DNA of 64,000 nucleotides, taken from NCBI RefSeq assembly GCF_000025305.1, contig NC_013740.1:868001-932000 (forward strand), read 5' to 3'. Positions 3,051-48,165 of the stretch are shown here, piece after piece. The DNA is from Acidaminococcus fermentans DSM 20731. GTDB taxonomy: Bacteria; Bacillota; Negativicutes; Acidaminococcales; Acidaminococcaceae. The position numbers were made by a program, and so were the translations under genes. The notes beneath the pieces are model-generated. The model was not told the origin of the DNA and searched no databases. It saw only the letters and a list, made by a program, of their open reading frames with translations. Numbering within the stretch: the stretch's first letter is position 1; each line of letters starts with the position of its first letter.

Positions 3051-3605
3051 TTGTCAGCTTTGGATCAGTACTCATATTTATTTTTCGTATGCGAAGGAAA
3101 AAATGAAGAAGCGATTGTAAAATGGCTGGCTGAAGCGGACGCAATCGATTTCCCCAAAAAGCAGTATTCCCTTGATTTCTGCAGAGCACGAACGAAAAGT
3201 ACCCGACCTAAAATACTACGAGCAGCGACCCAATTTGATTATGGTGGGCCGGTTGCCATAATTTATGTTTGTGATTCTCATGGAGAGAAATGGTCAGTGG
3301 GGAAAGATTGCATGGGGAATGAAATTCCGGTAATAAAGATAGTAACAAGTCCGGAAATCGAGATTCTTCTGGTTCATAAGGCTCATTGTATTGAGAAATG
3401 GAAAAGTGCCCGGGCAAAAAATCCAAAACTCCATGTATCAGCTTTTTGCAGGCAGATGTTCAAGATGGATGTAAAAAATGGCGAAAACTTTGTACAACAG
3501 TTTTCGTCAGTTAAAGATTTCAAAAAAATCTGTCTAGAATATAAAAGTGCCTCCGACAGCCGAAAATTCAAGAACGAGTTGACATGGTATGATTTGTTGA
3601 AGTAA
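3051..3605 (+). CDS. TOPRIM-like effector partner (RloB/DUF4435-like)
   Basis: 184-residue protein following the ATPase. The N-terminus YLFFVCEGKNEEAIVKWL has the hydrophobic-strand-then-EG pattern of TOPRIM-fold nucleases (Glu15). VAIIYVCDSHGEKW near residue 67 would supply the acidic second motif. The segment TSPEIEILLVHK near residue 99 resembles the conserved NPEIE/SNPCFE region of RloB-type proteins. By analogy with RloAB and PARIS this would be the nuclease or toxic effector released by the ATPase. The start is TTG 3051, with a GGGGG purine run just upstream inside the end of the ATPase gene. It shares the low G+C of its partner. Function is inferred. Confidence 0.6.
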   Translation: MSALDQYSYLFFVCEGKNEEAIVKWLAEADAIDFPKKQYSLDFCRARTKSTRPKILRAATQFDYGGPVAIIYVCDSHGEKWSVGKDCMGNEIPVIKIVTSPEIEILLVHKAHCIEKWKSARAKNPKLHVSAFCRQMFKMDVKNGENFVQQFSSVKDFKKICLEYKSASDSRKFKNELTWYDLLK

Positions 3606-4477: not shown

Positions 4478-4777
4478 GTGTTGGATGTCCGGTATAAGAA
4501 CAAGAAATTGCAGAAGATATGCACAGATGCAGAGACAGCGCGGGCTTCTTATGGCAACGAGATGGCGCGTAAGCTTCATTTAAGAATAGATCAATTGGAG
4601 GCTGCAGATTCCATTCAAGAATTAATATTGAATCATATTGGTCGGTGCCATGGGCTGAGCGGAAATCGTCAAGGACAGTATGCCATGGATTTAGCACAGC
4701 CATATCGGTTGATTTTCAAGGAAGTGGAATCAGGAATCCAGATTGTTATGGTTATGGAAATTGTGGATTACCATTGA
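4478..4777 (+). CDS. higB: RelE/HigB-family toxin
   Basis: 99-residue small basic protein of the HigB plasmid-maintenance-killer family: LDVRYKNKKLQKICTD at the N-terminus, GRCHGLSGNRQGQYAMDL in the middle (HxL..R.G.w..d pattern) and PYRLIFKE...VMEIVDYH at the end. Such proteins are ribosome-associated mRNA endonucleases restrained by the antitoxin encoded just downstream. The start is taken as GTG 4478, with TTG 4481 as an alternative; GAGGTGA lies upstream. The antitoxin gene begins 16 bases after the stop. Gene order toxin-then-antitoxin is normal for HigBA. Confidence 0.8.
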   Translation: MLDVRYKNKKLQKICTDAETARASYGNEMARKLHLRIDQLEAADSIQELILNHIGRCHGLSGNRQGQYAMDLAQPYRLIFKEVESGIQIVMVMEIVDYH

Positions 4778-27385: not shown

Positions 27386-27546
27386 AAATAGTTCCGGTAG
27401 GCCAGGCTCCTACAGGGATATGGACTGCTGCCGCAACAGGATGGAGACATCCCGCGTAGGTCTGAACAGGCTGCGTCAAACAAGAAGGCGCCGCATAATG
27501 CAGTTTCACCGCCCTGTAGAGTTAAAGCTCGTACGGTGGCAGTGGG
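27386..27546 (+). ncRNA. M-box (ykoK) magnesium riboswitch
   Basis: The leader contains the M-box landmarks in order: GTAGGCCAGGCTCCTAC, then GGGATATGGACTGCTGCC, and near the 3' side GAGTTAAAGCTCGTACGG. This closely follows the class consensus (TAGGTGAGGCTCCTA, ATACGCTGCTGCC, TTAAAGCTCTACG). It sits between a consensus promoter and an intrinsic terminator, upstream of a magnesium transporter. High Mg2+ should favour termination (known for the class). Confidence 0.9.
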
Positions 27547-27579
27547 ATTGGTTTCCATTGAAGAATATTTGTATTTTCT

Positions 27580-42612: not shown

Positions 42613-44001
42613 ATGGAATACTGGGATATTTACGACAGCAGTAAACAGGTCACCGGCCGGAAAATGGTCCGGAACGACTGGCACATGAAACCGGGAGACT
42701 ACCATCTGACGGTGCTGGCCCTGATCCGGGACGCCGCAGGACGGATCCTGATCACCCAGCGGAAAGGGGACAAGGAATGGGCTCCCCTGAAATGGGAGAT
42801 CCCCGGAGGGGGCGTCCGGGCCGGGGAAACTTCCCAGGAGGCGGTTCTCCGGGAAGTGGCGGAAGAAACCGGGCTCCATTTCACCCCGGAACAGGGCCGC
42901 TGCATCCATACCTACCGGAGCGACAGCCCGGCCGAACAGAACAATTACTTTGTGGATATTTATGAATTCCGGGGAATTTTTATGCCGGAACAGGTAAAGA
43001 TCCAGGAGGACGAAGTGGAAAGCTTCCGGCTGGCCACTCCCGGGGAAATCCGGCAGCTGGGAAAACAGGACGATTTCCTCCATTTTCAGAGAATCGAGGG
43101 ACTTTTGACCATGGACATCAAAAAAATCACCATTGCAGGCGCCGGGACCATGGGCTATTCCATGGCGGATATCTTTGCCCAGAACGGGTATGAAGTGACG
43201 CTGTGGAACCATCGGCAGCCCACTCTGGACAAGGCAAAAACGAAGATTTCCCCGGCAGCGGCGGAGAAGATCACCTTCACCACCAGCCTGGACGCCTTCC
43301 GGGGCCGGGACCTGATCGTGGAATCCATTGCGGAAAATCTGGACATCAAACTGGATTTCTACCGGCAGATGAGCCTCCTGGCGGATCCGGAAACCATCAT
43401 CGCCACCAATACCTCCGGCCTGTCCATCAACAAGCTGGCGGAAGCCGTCACCGGTCCGGAACGGTTCCTGGGGATGCACTGGTTCAATCCTCCCACTTTG
43501 ATCCCCCTGATCGAAATCATCAAAAATGCCAAAACCCGGCCGGATGTGGCCCGGACCATTTATGACCTGTCCCTGGCCATCGGGAAGAAACCGGCCCTGG
43601 TGGAAAAGGATGTGCCCGGCTTTGCGGCCAACCGGATCCAACTGGCGGTGCTCCGGGAAGCCCTGGCCCTGGTCCGGGACGGGGTGGTCAGCGTGGAAGG
43701 GGCTGACGCGGTGATGAAATACGGCCTGGGCTTCCGGTGGGCCTGCCTGGGGCCCCTGGAAACGGTGGATTTCGGCGGCCTGGATGTGTTCTATCACATC
43801 AGCGAATACCTGATGCCGGATCTGGAAGATTCCCATGCCGTGCCGGAACTGCTGGCGAAAAAGTTCCAGGCCGGGGAATACGGGGTGAAGAACGGAAAGG
43901 GCTTCTATGATTATGCCGGGGACAAGGCCAGGGAAGCCACCGCCGCCCGGGACAAGAAGCTCCAGGCGGTGTATGACGCCCTGTACGGAGAAAAGAAATG
44001 A
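42613..44001 (+). CDS. NUDIX hydrolase fused to 3-hydroxyacyl-CoA dehydrogenase
   Basis: 462 residues in one frame. Residues 1-~165 are a complete NUDIX domain with the box GGGVRAGETSQEAVLREVAE followed by ETGL. Residues ~167-462 are a 3-hydroxybutyryl-CoA-dehydrogenase-like enzyme: ITIAGAGTMGYSMADIFAQ (NAD loop), catalytic GMHWFNPP histidine, PLIEII glutamate, KDVPGFAANRIQ and ENGKGFYDY-like end (KNGKGFYDYAG). No stop separates them. An internal ATG at 43111 has GAGGGA about 10 bases upstream, so separate translation of the second domain is possible. Overlaps the Crp/Fnr gene by ATGA. The dehydrogenase would suit acyl-CoA fermentation chemistry (inference). Confidence 0.8.
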   Translation: MEYWDIYDSSKQVTGRKMVRNDWHMKPGDYHLTVLALIRDAAGRILITQRKGDKEWAPLKWEIPGGGVRAGETSQEAVLREVAEETGLHFTPEQGRCIHTYRSDSPAEQNNYFVDIYEFRGIFMPEQVKIQEDEVESFRLATPGEIRQLGKQDDFLHFQRIEGLLTMDIKKITIAGAGTMGYSMADIFAQNGYEVTLWNHRQPTLDKAKTKISPAAAEKITFTTSLDAFRGRDLIVESIAENLDIKLDFYRQMSLLADPETIIATNTSGLSINKLAEAVTGPERFLGMHWFNPPTLIPLIEIIKNAKTRPDVARTIYDLSLAIGKKPALVEKDVPGFAANRIQLAVLREALALVRDGVVSVEGADAVMKYGLGFRWACLGPLETVDFGGLDVFYHISEYLMPDLEDSHAVPELLAKKFQAGEYGVKNGKGFYDYAGDKAREATAARDKKLQAVYDALYGEKK

Positions 44002-44690
44002 CTGGGAAAGTGCCGGAAGAGTGCAGGAGCTGCCGGGGAGAATGTCTGAAGAACGTGGAATTCCTGGTGGGCCTGCCTCCGGAAAAGGTGACCACCCTGC
44101 TGCGCCGGGCGGTGCGGCTGACCCTGCCCAAGGGAGGCTGCCTGTTCCGGGAGGGGGAAGCCTGTGACGCCATCTACATCATCCACCGGGGCCGGGTGAA
44201 ACTGAGCACCTACGACCAGGACGGACTGGAGCGGATTGCCGGCATCTTTGTGGAACACGATACCATGTGGGAAGGGGTACTGGTCCCCGACAGCCGGTAT
44301 TCCGCTTCGGCCATTGCCATGACGGAGGTGGAGTACTGCAAGCTGGCCCGGAAAGATTTCGAAGAGGCCATCCAGGAACCGGAAGTGGCCATGCGGATCA
44401 TTGCCCTTTTGAGCAAGAAGCTCCACGATGCCAACCGGCGGAACCTGCTGAAAAGCATTGCGGACCCCAAGGAACGGGTGGCGGGGCTGCTGCTGTACCG
44501 GTACCGGCGGCAGACCAGCGACATCATTACCCTGCGGCTGGACGAAATGGCCGGGCTGATCGCCCTGCGGCCGGAAACCATCAGCCGGAAGCTGAAGGAA
44601 CTGGAACGGGAAGGGTATGTGAAAAAGACCGGCCAGAGCAGCATCCGGATCCTGGATCCGGACCGGCTCATGGAATTGGTGAATTATTGA
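43998..44690 (+). CDS. Crp/Fnr-family transcription regulator
   Basis: 230 residues: cyclic-nucleotide-binding-like beta-barrel (GGCLFREGEACDAIYIIHRG near residue 50), long helix, then a winged HTH (DEMAGLIALRPETISRKLKE near residue 190). The N-terminus has a cysteine cluster C9-x2-C12-x3-C16 reminiscent of an Fe-S sensor, though the spacing differs from E. coli FNR. The recognition helix RPETISRKL is of the Crp/Fnr type that reads TTGA..TCAA. The two such boxes just downstream make pflA and pflB its likely targets. Confidence 0.88.
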   Translation: MTGKVPEECRSCRGECLKNVEFLVGLPPEKVTTLLRRAVRLTLPKGGCLFREGEACDAIYIIHRGRVKLSTYDQDGLERIAGIFVEHDTMWEGVLVPDSRYSASAIAMTEVEYCKLARKDFEEAIQEPEVAMRIIALLSKKLHDANRRNLLKSIADPKERVAGLLLYRYRRQTSDIITLRLDEMAGLIALRPETISRKLKELEREGYVKKTGQSSIRILDPDRLMELVNY

Positions 44691-44722
44691 AAGAGCTGTC
44701 AACGGCCAACGGCCGAAGGAAA

Positions 44723-44750
44723 GGACCCGCCTGTGGGACGGGTCCTTTTT
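44723..44750 (+). terminator. Terminator of the Crp/Fnr gene
   Basis: GGACCCG/CGGGTCC stem followed by TTTTT. Confidence 0.85.
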
Positions 44751-44756
44751 CAGATT

Positions 44757-44798
44757 TTGACTGGAATCAAGGAACCTTTTTCCAAAAAGACATACAAT
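44757..44798 (+). promoter_or_regulatory. pflA promoter with Fnr-type box at -41.5
   Basis: Box TTGACTGGAATCAA (44757-44770) and -10 TACAAT (44793-44798), no good -35. With the start taken 7 bases after the -10, the box centre is at -41.5, the class II activator position. Confidence 0.75.
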
Positions 44799-44800
44799 GA

Positions 44801-44849
44801 GACCCATCAAGAGGTACACAATGGTGACCCCTTTGATGGGGTCTTTTTT
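44801..44849 (+). promoter_or_regulatory. Attenuator-like hairpins in the pflA leader
   Basis: GACCCC-6-GGGGTC plus six Ts (44826-44849) is an intrinsic terminator lying between the promoter and pflA. Upstream bases 44804-44814 (CATCAAGAGG region) can instead pair with CCTTTGATG inside that hairpin, giving two exclusive folds. Confidence 0.55.
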
Positions 44850-44863
44850 ATCAGGAGGTCATT

Positions 44864-45595
44864 ATGATCCAGGGACGTATCCATTCCATCGAAACCTTCG
44901 GGTCCGTAGACGGGCCCGGCACCCGCTTCATCATCTTTGTCCAGGGCTGCCACATGCGCTGCCTGTACTGCCACAATGTGGACACCTGGAAATGCGGCCA
45001 GGGAGGCCAGCTGAAAACCGCCGATGAACTGCTGGACCAGGCGGAACGGTACCGGCCCTACTGGGGACCGGAAGGGGGCATCACCGTCAGCGGCGGGGAA
45101 CCCCTGCTCCAGATGGAGTTCCTGCTGGACCTGTTCCGGAAGGCCAAAGCCCGGGGCATCGGCACCTGCATTGATACGGCCGGCCAGCCCTTTACCCGGA
45201 AAGAGCCTTTCTTCAGCCAGTTCCAGCAGCTGATGGAAGTGACGGACATCCTGCTGGTGGATGTGAAGCACATCGACCCGGAAGCCCATAAAAAGCTCAC
45301 CGGCCAGCCCAATGACAATATCCTGGACCTGTTCCGGTATCTGTCCGATAGCAAAAAGCCCATCTGGGTGCGCCAGGTGCTGGTGCCCGGCTGGACCGAT
45401 GATCCGGCATCCCTGAAGCGGACCCGGCAGTTCCTGGATACCCTTGCCAATATCCAGCGGGTGGAAGTATTGCCCTACCACAATATGGGGCTGTACAAAT
45501 GGGAAGAACTGGGCATCCCCAACCAGCTGAAGGACGTGAAGCCCCCCACCCGGGAAGAAGTGGACAAGGCACGGGCGATTTTGAGAGCCATATAA
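44864..45595 (+). CDS. pflA: Pyruvate formate-lyase activating enzyme
   Basis: Radical SAM enzyme that installs the glycyl radical on PflB. 243 residues with the cluster motif CHMRCLYCHNVD (CxxxCxxC, residues 30-37), FGSVDGPGTRFIIFVQGC before it and GGITVSGGEPLLQ near residue 78. ATG 44864 follows AGGAGGTC. pflB follows 111 bases later with its own promoter. Confidence 0.95.
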   Translation: MIQGRIHSIETFGSVDGPGTRFIIFVQGCHMRCLYCHNVDTWKCGQGGQLKTADELLDQAERYRPYWGPEGGITVSGGEPLLQMEFLLDLFRKAKARGIGTCIDTAGQPFTRKEPFFSQFQQLMEVTDILLVDVKHIDPEAHKKLTGQPNDNILDLFRYLSDSKKPIWVRQVLVPGWTDDPASLKRTRQFLDTLANIQRVEVLPYHNMGLYKWEELGIPNQLKDVKPPTREEVDKARAILRAI

Positions 45596-45616
45596 AATCG
45601 GTTAGTTTAAACAAAC

Positions 45617-45658
45617 TTGATTCCAGTCAAGGTTTTCAAACAGGAAAAGGGCTATGAT
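45617..45658 (+). promoter_or_regulatory. pflB promoter with Fnr-type box at -41.5
   Basis: Box TTGATTCCAGTCAA (45617-45630), the exact reverse complement of the pflA box, and -10 TATGAT (45653-45658). The box centre is again 41.5 bases before the predicted start. Confidence 0.78.
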
Positions 45659-45706: not shown

Positions 45707-47986
45707 ATGAACAGCATCAATCAGAATGTTGCATGGAGAGGTTTTAAAGGCGTGAAATGGACGGACGATGTGGATGTCCGGGATTTCATCCAGAACAACT
45801 ATACCCCGTATGACGGGGACGAAAGCTTCCTGGCAGGGCCTACGGAAGCCACCAACAAACTGTGGGGAAAGGTCCAGGAACTCCAGAAGGAAGAACGGGC
45901 CAAAGGCGGCGTGCTGGACTGCGAAACGGAAGTGGTTTCCAGCCTGACGGCGTACGGCCCCGGCTACATCGATGAATCCATGAAGGATCTGGAACAGGTG
46001 GTGGGCCTCCAGACCGACAAGCCTCTGAAACGGGCCTTCATGCCCTACGGCGGCATCAAAATGGCGGAAGAAGCGGCGGAAACCTACGGGTACAAAGTGA
46101 ACCCCAAGTTCCACAAGATTTTCACCGAATACCACAAGACCCACAACCAGGCCGTGTTCGATGCCTACACCGCTGAAATGCGCCGGGCCCGTCACAGCCA
46201 CATCGTAACCGGTCTGCCCGACACCTACGGCCGGGGCCGGATCGTGGGGGACTACCGGAGAGTGGCTCTCTACGGCATCGACTTCCTGATCAACAAGAAA
46301 AACGAAGATCTGGACAACTGCGGCTGCGGCGTCATGACCGACGACATCATCCGGCAGCGGGAAGAACTGGCGGAACAGATCCGGGCCCTGAAACAGATGA
46401 AGGAAATGGCCAAAGTCTACGGCTATGACATTTCCGCCCCGGCCAAGAATGCCAAGGAAGCGGTACAATGGCTGTACTTCGGCTACCTGGCTGCCGTGAA
46501 GACCCAGAACGGGGCTGCCATGAGCGTGGGCCGGATCTCCACCTTCCTGGATATCTACATCAGCCGTGACCTGGCCGAAGGGACCCTGACCGAAGAGGCG
46601 GCCCAGGAACTGATCGACCACCTGACCCTGAAATTCCGTATGGTGAAATTCGCCCGTATCCCGTCCTACAACCAGCTGTTCTCCGGTGACCCGGTATGGG
46701 CCACCCTGGAAATGGCCGGCATCGGCATGGACGGCCGGCACATGGTCACCCGGAACGACTTCCGGTTCCTCCATACCCTGGAAAACATGGGGCCTTCTCC
46801 GGAACCGAACCTGACTGTGCTGTATTCTTCCGCACTGCCGGATAACTTCAAGAAATACGCTGCCCACATTTCCATCACCACTTCTTCCATCCAGTACGAA
46901 AACGACGATGTGATGAAGCCCGTATGGGGCGATGACTACAGCATCTGCTGCTGCGTATCCGCCACCCAGACCGGGAAGGAAATGCAGTTCTTCGGGGCTC
47001 GGGCCAACCTGGGCAAATGCCTGCTGTACGCCATCAACGGGGGCAAGGACGAAAAGTTCCTGACCAAGGACGGCAAACACATGCAGGTGGGGCCGGAATA
47101 TGCGCCCATCACTTCTGAAGTGCTGGATTACGGCGAAGTGATGCACAAATTCGACCTGATGATGGACTGGCTGGCCGGGCTGTACGTGAACATCCTGAAC
47201 CTGATCCAGTACATGCATGACAAATACTACTATGAAGCGGCTGAAATGGCCCTGATTGACACCGATGTGCGCCGGACCTTTGCCACCGGTATCGCCGGGT
47301 TCTCCCATGTGGTGGATTCCCTGTGCGCCATCAAATATGCCAAAGTCTCCACGGTCCGGGATGAATCCGGCCTGGTGGTGGACTACAAGATCGAAGGGGA
47401 CTTCCCCAAATACGGCAACGATGATCCCCGGGCGGATGAAATCGCCGTGTGGCTGCTGAAGACCTTCATGACCAAGCTGCGGAAACACCACACCTACCGG
47501 AATTCCGAAGCCACCACCTCCATCCTGACCATCACCTCCAATGTGGTGTACGGCGGCGCCACCGGTGCCCTGCCTGATGGACGGAAGGCCTATACCCCGT
47601 TCGCTCCCGGTGCCAACCCGGCCTACGGTGCGGAACAGAACGGCCTGCTGGCATCCCTGAACTCCGTAGCCAAACTGCCCTACGAATACGCGCTGGACGG
47701 GATTTCCAACACCCAGACCATCGCTCCGGAAACCCTGGGCCACAACGAAGAAGAACAGAAAGCCACCCTGGTGCGGGTGATGGACGGTTACTTCGACCAG
47801 GGAGCCCACCACCTGAACGTGAACGTGTTCGGTGTGGACAAGCTGATCGACTGCATGGAACATCCGGAAAAACCGGAATACGCCAACTTCACCATCCGGG
47901 TATCCGGCTACGCGGTGAAATTCATCGACCTGACAAGAGAACAGCAGCTGGACGTCATCGCCCGCCGCGCCCATCAGAAGATGTAA
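45707..47986 (+). CDS. pflB: Formate acetyltransferase (pyruvate formate-lyase)
   Basis: Cleaves pyruvate with CoA to acetyl-CoA and formate under anoxia. 759 residues, full length. Active-site cysteine pair in [17 protein letters not shown] near residue 413 and glycyl-radical site [19 protein letters not shown] near residue 734. ATG 45707 after AAGGAGGATC. Activated by the product of pflA just upstream. Confidence 0.97.
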
Positions 47987-48064: not shown

Positions 48065-48165
48065 CCTTCATCGAGAGCAGCAGAGGGATTTGGCCCTATG
48101 AAGCTGCGGCAACCCCCGGATGGGAAGGTGCCAATTCCAACAGGGATTCCCTGGCAGATGAAAAA
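48065..48165 (+). ncRNA. SAM-I riboswitch (S-box)
   Basis: P1 helix TTCATC/GATGAA (48067-48072 with 48157-48162) encloses the S-box consensus in order: GAGAG, AGAGGGATTTGGCCCTATGA, GCGGCAACCCCC, GGAAGGTGCCAATTCCAACA. Binding of S-adenosylmethionine should promote termination at the following hairpin. Confidence 0.93.

Follow-up and report, generated by a model that had tools for sequence, protein, structure and literature searches.

Introduction

The closest described counterpart of the locus analyzed here is the regulator FNR of Escherichia coli. In the parts of the two papers drawn on here, E. coli FNR is described as binding TTGATNNNNATCAA, preferring sites near -41.5, activating focA-pflB from -40.5 and directly activating ackA as well (PMC3688515, PMC4505428), and, in the part of the second paper used, E209, S212 and R213 are given as its main contacts with the FNR box (PMC4505428). 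We analyzed a stretch of 64,000 nucleotides from Acidaminococcus fermentans DSM 20731 (contig NC_013740.1, positions 868,001 to 932,000, forward strand), hereafter called the window, in which a Crp/Fnr-family regulator gene is followed by pflA and pflB. As far as the parts of the sources used here describe them, the class II promoters of E. coli FNR (focA-pflB, dmsA and narG) resemble this locus in the box, a box centre near -41.5, the E/S/R residues of the regulator, its four cysteines and pflB as a target. Because E. coli FNR works in a similar manner, the principle is known, and the cassette described here is a variant of it.

Several features nevertheless set the locus apart from the E. 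coli system. The regulator is encoded beside its predicted targets, and the strict composite site, consisting of a box and a -10, occurs only twice in the A. fermentans genome. The N-terminal cysteines of the regulator have the spacing CX2CX3C, its score lies below the FNR-subfamily cut-off, and a terminator coincides in part with the pflA promoter. In Butyrivibrio, moreover, the predicted target varies between genomes, being either pflB or PFOR. Other Crp/Fnr regulators (CRP/GlxR-type, FixK and Dnr) share the fold of this protein but differ from it in its four mostly conserved cysteines and in its FNR-type recognition helix and box. The hairpin at the pflA promoter is like the intrinsic terminators and attenuators of 5' leaders in being GC-rich, followed by a T-run and located between promoter and gene; unlike the usual terminators of this kind, its 5' arm begins right past the -10, consists in part of promoter DNA and would to that extent be missing from the RNA of that promoter. 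Among titles and abstract openings in the open literature, we found no report of such a regulator with pyruvate formate-lyase (PFL) in Acidaminococcus, Negativicutes, Butyrivibrio or Lachnospiraceae, nor of a PFL/PFOR swap or a promoter inside a terminator, which is weak evidence at this depth of search.

Promoters of pflA and pflB

The features of the cassette are as follows, in coordinates of the window.

43998..44690, plus strand: Crp/Fnr-family regulator gene, 230 aa (PF00027, 64.6 bits; PF13545, 53.5 bits; both above cut-off)
44720..44750, plus strand: separate intrinsic terminator after the regulator gene, GGACCCG/CGGGTCC then T5
44757..44770, no strand assigned: Fnr-type box of pflA, TTGACTGGAATCAA, kept at equal spacing in relatives
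44793..44798, plus strand: -10 of pflA, TACAAT, predicted start 44805
44799..44849, plus strand: terminator-like hairpin and T-run with the 5' arm directly after the pflA -10, found in 8/9 Negativicutes loci
44864..45595, plus strand: pflA, pyruvate formate-lyase activating enzyme (radical SAM; TIGR02493, 300.6 bits, cut-off 231.75)
45617..45630, no strand assigned: Fnr-type box of pflB, TTGATTCCAGTCAA, exact reverse complement of TTGACTGGAATCAA
45653..45658, plus strand: -10 of pflB, TATGAT, predicted start 45665
45707..47986, plus strand: pflB, formate C-acetyltransferase, 759 aa, glycyl-radical enzyme (TIGR01255, 1142.2 bits, cut-off 994.2)

Both boxes are 14 bp long, differ from the FNR box TTGATNNNNATCAA at one position and begin 36 nt before the first base of the -10. 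With the start of transcription set 7 nt past the -10, this offset places both box centres at -41.5. A consensus scan revealed no sigma-70 -35/-10 pair at the pflA or the pflB promoter, and the arrangement of a box centred at -41.5 with a -10 and without a -35 is, by its sequence, that of a class II promoter. An earlier note on this DNA had described the boxes, their reverse complementarity, the -10s, the centring at -41.5 and the missing -35, and each of these points was recovered here. The weight that it had placed on the exact inversion of the two boxes was not borne out: the inversion is real in the window, but it was found in only two of the nine loci compared (the window counted), and since the box is palindromic its orientation is meaningless; the inversion is incidental. 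No RNA family was found in Rfam at the pfl promoters. Elsewhere in the window, a SAM riboswitch at 48065-48164 precedes a gene for a MetQ-like lipoprotein, and an M-box magnesium riboswitch is located at 27386-27547.

The pattern TTGANTNNANTCAA was expected 0.06 times in the window and was observed twice. Throughout the 2,329,769-bp genome (one contig), it matched only the pflA and pflB boxes, and a reversed control pattern gave an equal count; the count alone is therefore no proof, and it is place, spacing and conservation that make the case. Chance matches of a motif near pfl would fit a genome count no higher than that of the control. This reading was refuted by the comparison of relatives presented below, in which box and spacing are conserved and regulator-free pfl loci have no exact box, and we rejected it as having practically no likelihood.

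Without a mismatch, TTGAYNNNNRTCAA was found at four places in the genome, and only the pflA and pflB boxes are followed by TANNNT 36 nt on. One-mismatch boxes numbered 231. At the level of box plus -10, the genome has two strict composite sites, and allowing one mismatch adds eight more, one of which (913589, minus strand) is the pflB box seen from the opposite strand. Inspection of the surroundings, of which conservation was not a part, revealed no clear target near the remaining seven one-mismatch sites or the two exact boxes that lack a -10. The earlier note had expected the motif to be of predictive use elsewhere in the genome and had called for a genome scan at -41.5; this expectation failed, as the scan gave no strict sites besides the pflA and pflB promoters. 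Likewise, no box was found at any of the 12 Acidaminococcus PFOR loci examined (of 17 matches above the family cut-off), four of which come from two regulator-free genomes. We read the cassette as a local switch in A. fermentans and not as an entry to a genome-wide motif. We also observed short repeats (TTGACAG, TTGACCA and TTGACAA, often TTGACAGCTGACAA) at 4691-4760 of the related locus L109 and at many places in the A. fermentans genome, and these inflate loose box searches.

Conservation of the cassette

The same gene block was found in A. fermentans WCA-389-WT-5B, A. massiliensis and A. provencensis. The regulator is present in seven of nine Acidaminococcus genomes, and PflA scored above its cut-off in those same seven and not in the other two. 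All 14 promoters of the seven genomes have a box with a -10 at exactly offset 36, with varying sequence in between; a single box, that of pflA in G006, starts with TTGAG and thereby departs from TTGAY.

An alignment of seven sequences was reduced to two peptide patterns for a contig scan, which returned 56 loci, a set that does not exhaust the existing relatives, from Acidaminococcus, Selenomonas montiformis, a Selenomonadaceae MAG, a Lachnoclostridium, many Butyrivibrio, Erysipelotrichaceae MAGs and others. The window and one further locus (L034) brought the 56 scan loci to 58. The order fnr-pflA-pflB was present in 35 of the 58, and the regulator stood alone in the retrieved sequence in 18. 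An exact box was located 5' of 35 of the 37 pflB genes, the exceptions being L117, in which the box precedes pflA as the first gene of the operon, and L156. For pflA the corresponding number was 11 of 39; the pflA boxes of L110 and L112 have one mismatch at equal spacing, and in the closely read Butyrivibrio loci (L119, L127, L139, L144 and L145) pflA follows 13-135 nt past the regulator without a box.

As evident from 43 distinct 60-nt segments that were picked on the box alone, with the -10 disregarded, TANNNT stands at exactly offset 36 in 41 cases; the next best offset reached 7/43, and the mean elsewhere was about 2% per position. Many of these segments come from close Butyrivibrio or Acidaminococcus kin and therefore do not represent 43 independent trials. 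The class II spacing proposed earlier thus holds, at the level of sequence, well beyond the window. Over 53 distinct sites, among which the PFOR and pta sites had been found with a pattern that includes the -10, the consensus was TTGATTNNAATCAA. The two positions flanking the central two bases were free in the search pattern, and they were T in 87% and A in 96% of these sites. At the place of a -35 (17-nt spacer), the match to TTGACA averaged 1.43 of 6 bases with a maximum of 3, in agreement with the lack of a -35 in the window; T was found at -15 in 57% and G at -14 in 60% of the sites.

Five other genomes of the order, with PflA above its cut-off but without a close orthologue of the regulator, served as controls; two of them (G042 and G061) have a distant homologue. 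No exact box was found at the pfl genes of these five genomes, and none of their one-mismatch matches (L053:2217, L240:55 and L243:3579) fell in the 320 nt preceding a pfl gene. Together with the co-occurrence of regulator and PflA in seven of nine genomes, this result upholds the pairing of the boxes with the adjoining regulator that had been claimed for the window. PflB identity to the window's protein was 53-57% in the controls versus 79-99% in the regulator-bearing cassettes. In G042, the locus of the distant Crp/Fnr homologue (L038) has a box at 2208, in reverse-complement orientation, with TACAAT at 36-nt spacing before an unrelated gene.

The boxes accompany the regulator across four named families. 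In a tree of the regulator, the two Selenomonadaceae sequences were placed inside Acidaminococcus, with support of 100/99 for a group of eight that excludes A. provencensis; identities were 76-77% for the two Selenomonadaceae versus 55% for A. provencensis. This placement and these identities suggest horizontal transfer of the cassette, a conclusion that we hold lightly in view of long or unresolved branches and a long-branch warning. The A. provencensis genome (G001) also contains seven sites in which TTGATNNANGTCAA is followed at fixed spacing by CCAC(A/G)TTTCTAAA(A/G)T, which may be a repeated element or another regulon.

The adjoining regulator

The regulator consists of a cNMP-binding-type domain followed by a Crp-type HTH, which places it in the Crp/Fnr superfamily. 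An AF2 model (mean pLDDT 80.3, pTM 0.58) showed the Crp/Fnr fold, and the best Foldseek matches were GlxR, Thermus CRP and M. tuberculosis CRP, with A. fischeri FNR at rank 16. The FNR subfamily model NF008365 gave 34.4 bits against a curated cut-off of 228, and at a score so far below this value the regulator is not classed as FNR proper. Upstream of the regulator, a single ORF (window 42613-44001) carries a NUDIX domain and a 3-hydroxyacyl-CoA dehydrogenase; these are separate ORFs in A. provencensis (L037), so that the window ORF looks like a gene fusion.

As had been noted earlier, the protein has an N-terminal cysteine cluster (Cys 9, 12 and 16, CX2CX3C) and its gene lies just upstream of the pfl promoters, with 66 bases between the ORF and the first box. 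A further cysteine is located at position 114, and the recognition helix reads ETISR. In an alignment with E. coli FNR, C9, C12 and C114 fall on its C20, C23 and C122, and the third N-terminal cysteine is spaced differently (CX2CX3C versus CX2CX5C). The four cysteines thus stand where an FNR-type oxygen sensor would hold a 4Fe-4S cluster, an assignment that refers to their presence only. They are invariant in the seven Acidaminococcus orthologues and kept in 51 of all 58, at identities as low as about 42% (L157). Among the exceptions, Cys 114 alone is left in L156 and L158, three cysteines are left in L159, and none in L160, L162 and L163; the regulator of L161 has a broken frame and was omitted. 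All 57 readable orthologues have E193, S196 and R197, the equivalents of E209, S212 and R213 in E. coli FNR.

The signal could also be a metabolite or the thiol redox state rather than oxygen acting through an Fe-S cluster, with the regulator, the boxes and class II activation unchanged. The hosts are fermentative anaerobes, the CX2CX3C spacing is unlike that of E. coli FNR, the FNR-subfamily cut-off is missed, and five regulators as read (L156, L158, L160, L162 and L163) have at most one of the four cysteines, with boxes kept in the L156 and L163 loci. The L163 regulator has none of the four, yet a pflB box is present, which counts against a strict link between cysteines and box. However, four cysteines are kept in most orthologues and three align with E. 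coli FNR; the genomes of the cysteine-less L160 and L162 have neither a strict composite site nor a PFOR box, and draft sequences may have broken or misread the N-terminal regions of L158, L160 and L162. We therefore consider a signal other than oxygen unlikely.

A protein bound at the boxes might instead be a repressor, or the boxes might serve a second Crp/Fnr protein. The A. fermentans genome does encode a second protein with a Crp-type HTH above the Pfam cut-off, but its helix, DRSALSNEL, lacks the ETISR residues. As to repression, one layout would fit it: in L163, an Fnr-type box (3089-3102) lies directly 5' of the regulator's own ribosome-binding site, without a -10 at offset 36, as would suit self-repression. 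At the pfl promoters, on the other hand, the fixed centre at -41.5 and the lack of a -35 are the layout of an activator, and the boxes track the regulator from family to family. Both variants appear highly improbable to us.

We conclude that activation by this regulator through these boxes, taken alone, is very probable on the comparisons made here. In the proposed mechanism, a dimer of the regulator would probably be active only with an intact, oxygen-labile Fe-S cluster on Cys 9, 12, 16 and 114; it would bind TTGATTNNAATCAA-type boxes centred at -41.5 and bring RNA polymerase to promoters equipped with a -10 but lacking a -35. Synthesis of pyruvate formate-lyase and its activase would then proceed under strict anoxia and halt once oxygen appears. 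Boxes, spacing, conservation, target genes and cysteines are facts of the sequence. The explanation in full, in which an Fnr-like protein acts locally as a class II activator of the pyruvate formate-lyase genes in a self-contained fnr-pflA-pflB cassette, with Fe-S oxygen sensing and the hairpin described next, is in our judgment likely.

A putative terminator at the pflA promoter

Two findings go beyond the earlier note, one being the overlap between a terminator-like hairpin and the predicted start of pflA, the other the spread of the regulator-box unit and its change of target. The hairpin is present in eight of the nine Negativicutes loci examined (window, L109, L116, L034, L113, L114, L111 and L110) and absent from L112; three of the eight are near-identical, leaving about six lineages. 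Its 5' arm begins at the first base past the -10 in seven loci and at the fourth base in L111. The predicted start thereby falls within the stem, which is built in part from promoter DNA. The outermost three to six pairs occupy -6 to -1 relative to that start and are kept through base changes (G-C or C-G at -4; A-T, C-G or T-A at -3). Being upstream of the predicted start, these pairs could form only in read-through RNA from upstream. Predicted energies ranged from -16.8 to -27.0 kcal/mol with the stem complete, and from -7.5 to -20.7 kcal/mol in RNA beginning at +1. A rough background count gave 68 rows among 6388 TANNNT in 754 kb, with repeats and pfl loci included in the 68. A weaker hairpin was found in the Erysipelotrichaceae locus L157.

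In L033, L036 and L037, which belong to the same genomes as L116, L113 and L114, respectively, the distance from the stop codon of the regulator to the start of the box is -4, 15 and 7 nt; there is no room before the box, and the hairpin is thus the only nearby terminator possible for the regulator gene. L115 lacks a hairpin at the predicted start and has a strong one, followed by a T-run, 5' of the box instead; L112 likewise lacks one at the predicted start and shows no obvious one 5' of its box. From its position and the layout of L115, we view the hairpin as the terminator of the regulator gene, with the pflA promoter laid into it. The A. fermentans genome already has a second terminator upstream of the first box (44720..44750).

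With the pflA promoter set within this terminator, in several relatives the sole one possible for the regulator gene, read-through RNA carrying the full stem should stop. RNA initiated at the pflA promoter, without the outer pairs, should terminate less, although judged by predicted structures this is clear-cut in only three of the eight loci. In L109, L113 and L114, the stem left over in RNA from +1 ends 8-15 nt short of the mark of the T-run. In the window, L116, L034 and L110, an alternative hairpin next to the T-run is possible in that RNA, and L111 loses only three pairs.

The last group of structures fits a different reading, in which the hairpin acts as an attenuator and reduces pflA expression compared with that of pflB, instead of being a read-through terminator that pflA RNA escapes. 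The activase is needed in smaller amounts than the enzyme. The outer pairs upstream of the predicted start, preserved through base changes, speak against an attenuator, as do the three genomes in which the box is too near the stop codon of the regulator for any other terminator. Attenuation is a possibility of some substance, though a doubtful one. The escape of pflA RNA is clear in only three of eight loci, and eight of 30 Butyrivibrio genomes have no strict site (see below); on these grounds we lowered our confidence in the explanation given in full above and in the proposal of a rewired regulator made below, and raised that in an attenuator.

Predicted targets beyond Acidaminococcus

We searched 39 of the 56 regulator-bearing genomes found for the composite pattern (box, 22 bases, TANNNT) and obtained 51 matches, versus 17 for the reversed pattern. 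Where the surroundings of a match were retrieved, the sites were located before pflB, pflA, PFOR or pta, except for 12 that were at none of these. Family assignments were checked on two loci each: pta scored above its cut-off, and PFOR gave 786-788 bits from the first 471-472 residues (cut-off 911, for the whole protein). Whole PFOR genes above the cut-off adjoin the site in G387, G389 and G399.

Butyrivibrio accounts for 30 of the 39 genomes searched. Twelve of these have a pflB site (G383, G384, G385, G388, G390 and G392-G398), three of them with a pta site besides (G390, G392 and G395). Eight have a PFOR site (G386, G387, G389, G399, G401, G402, G407 and G413), and none of them has a pfl gene next to the regulator in the retrieved sequence. 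The PFOR-site contig differs in size from the regulator's contig in all eight, so the link is not one of mere neighbourhood. Sites at both pflB and PFOR were found in none of the 30. Two genomes were left unassigned, one with a site resembling the pflB type (G391) and one with a PFOR-type site at a contig end (G406). In the other eight (G403, G404, G405 and G408-G412), five of which are MAGs (G403, G404, G405, G408 and G409), neither pflB nor PFOR nor pta has a strict site.

In the reverse test, PFOR was sought in 22 of these genomes and was found in 18 at the set threshold. None of ten pflB-type genomes had a box, with up to one mismatch, at the PFOR promoter. Among genomes with the regulator alone, the PFOR box was exact in G387, G389 and G399 and had one mismatch in G409; G410, G411 and G412 had no PFOR box, and PFOR is cut at its start in G403. 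The regulators of G410 and G412, as read, have no N-terminal cysteines and a Tyr at the fourth place, and that of G411 has a broken frame.

The regulator-box unit thus recurs in other Bacillota, where its target would be pflB, PFOR or, besides pflB, pta. Butyrivibrio genomes contain NifJ (PFOR) and, in nearly all cases, pyruvate formate-lyase, and strains vary in formate versus hydrogen output; a regulator with boxes at PFL or PFOR, depending on the genome, is a concrete candidate behind these strain differences. Tentatively, and with less than even confidence, we propose a mobile Fnr-like regulator at the pyruvate branch point in gut anaerobes from several families, with an output that in Butyrivibrio has been rewired between PFL (formate) and PFOR (reduced ferredoxin, hydrogen), never both in the genomes searched, combined in Negativicutes with a pflA promoter that would lie inside the terminator of the regulator, one stretch of DNA both halting read-through RNA and passing regulator-driven RNA. 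The cassette represents a compact Fnr-like module in anaerobes, and we regard its spread and re-targeting among gut anaerobes as the more interesting part of the finding.

Two further observations were made in these genomes. At L238 (G400, a Clostridiales MAG-type record), a composite site lies some 215 nt upstream of a gene for a protein with an N-terminus like that of anaerobic ribonucleotide reductase, another glycyl-radical enzyme. In the Butyrivibrio loci L216, L217 and L223, TTGACGCNCGTCAA boxes with the same spacing precede one gene family (N-terminus like QDLTYLNWSHIRSSSG) and are probably the site of another regulator.
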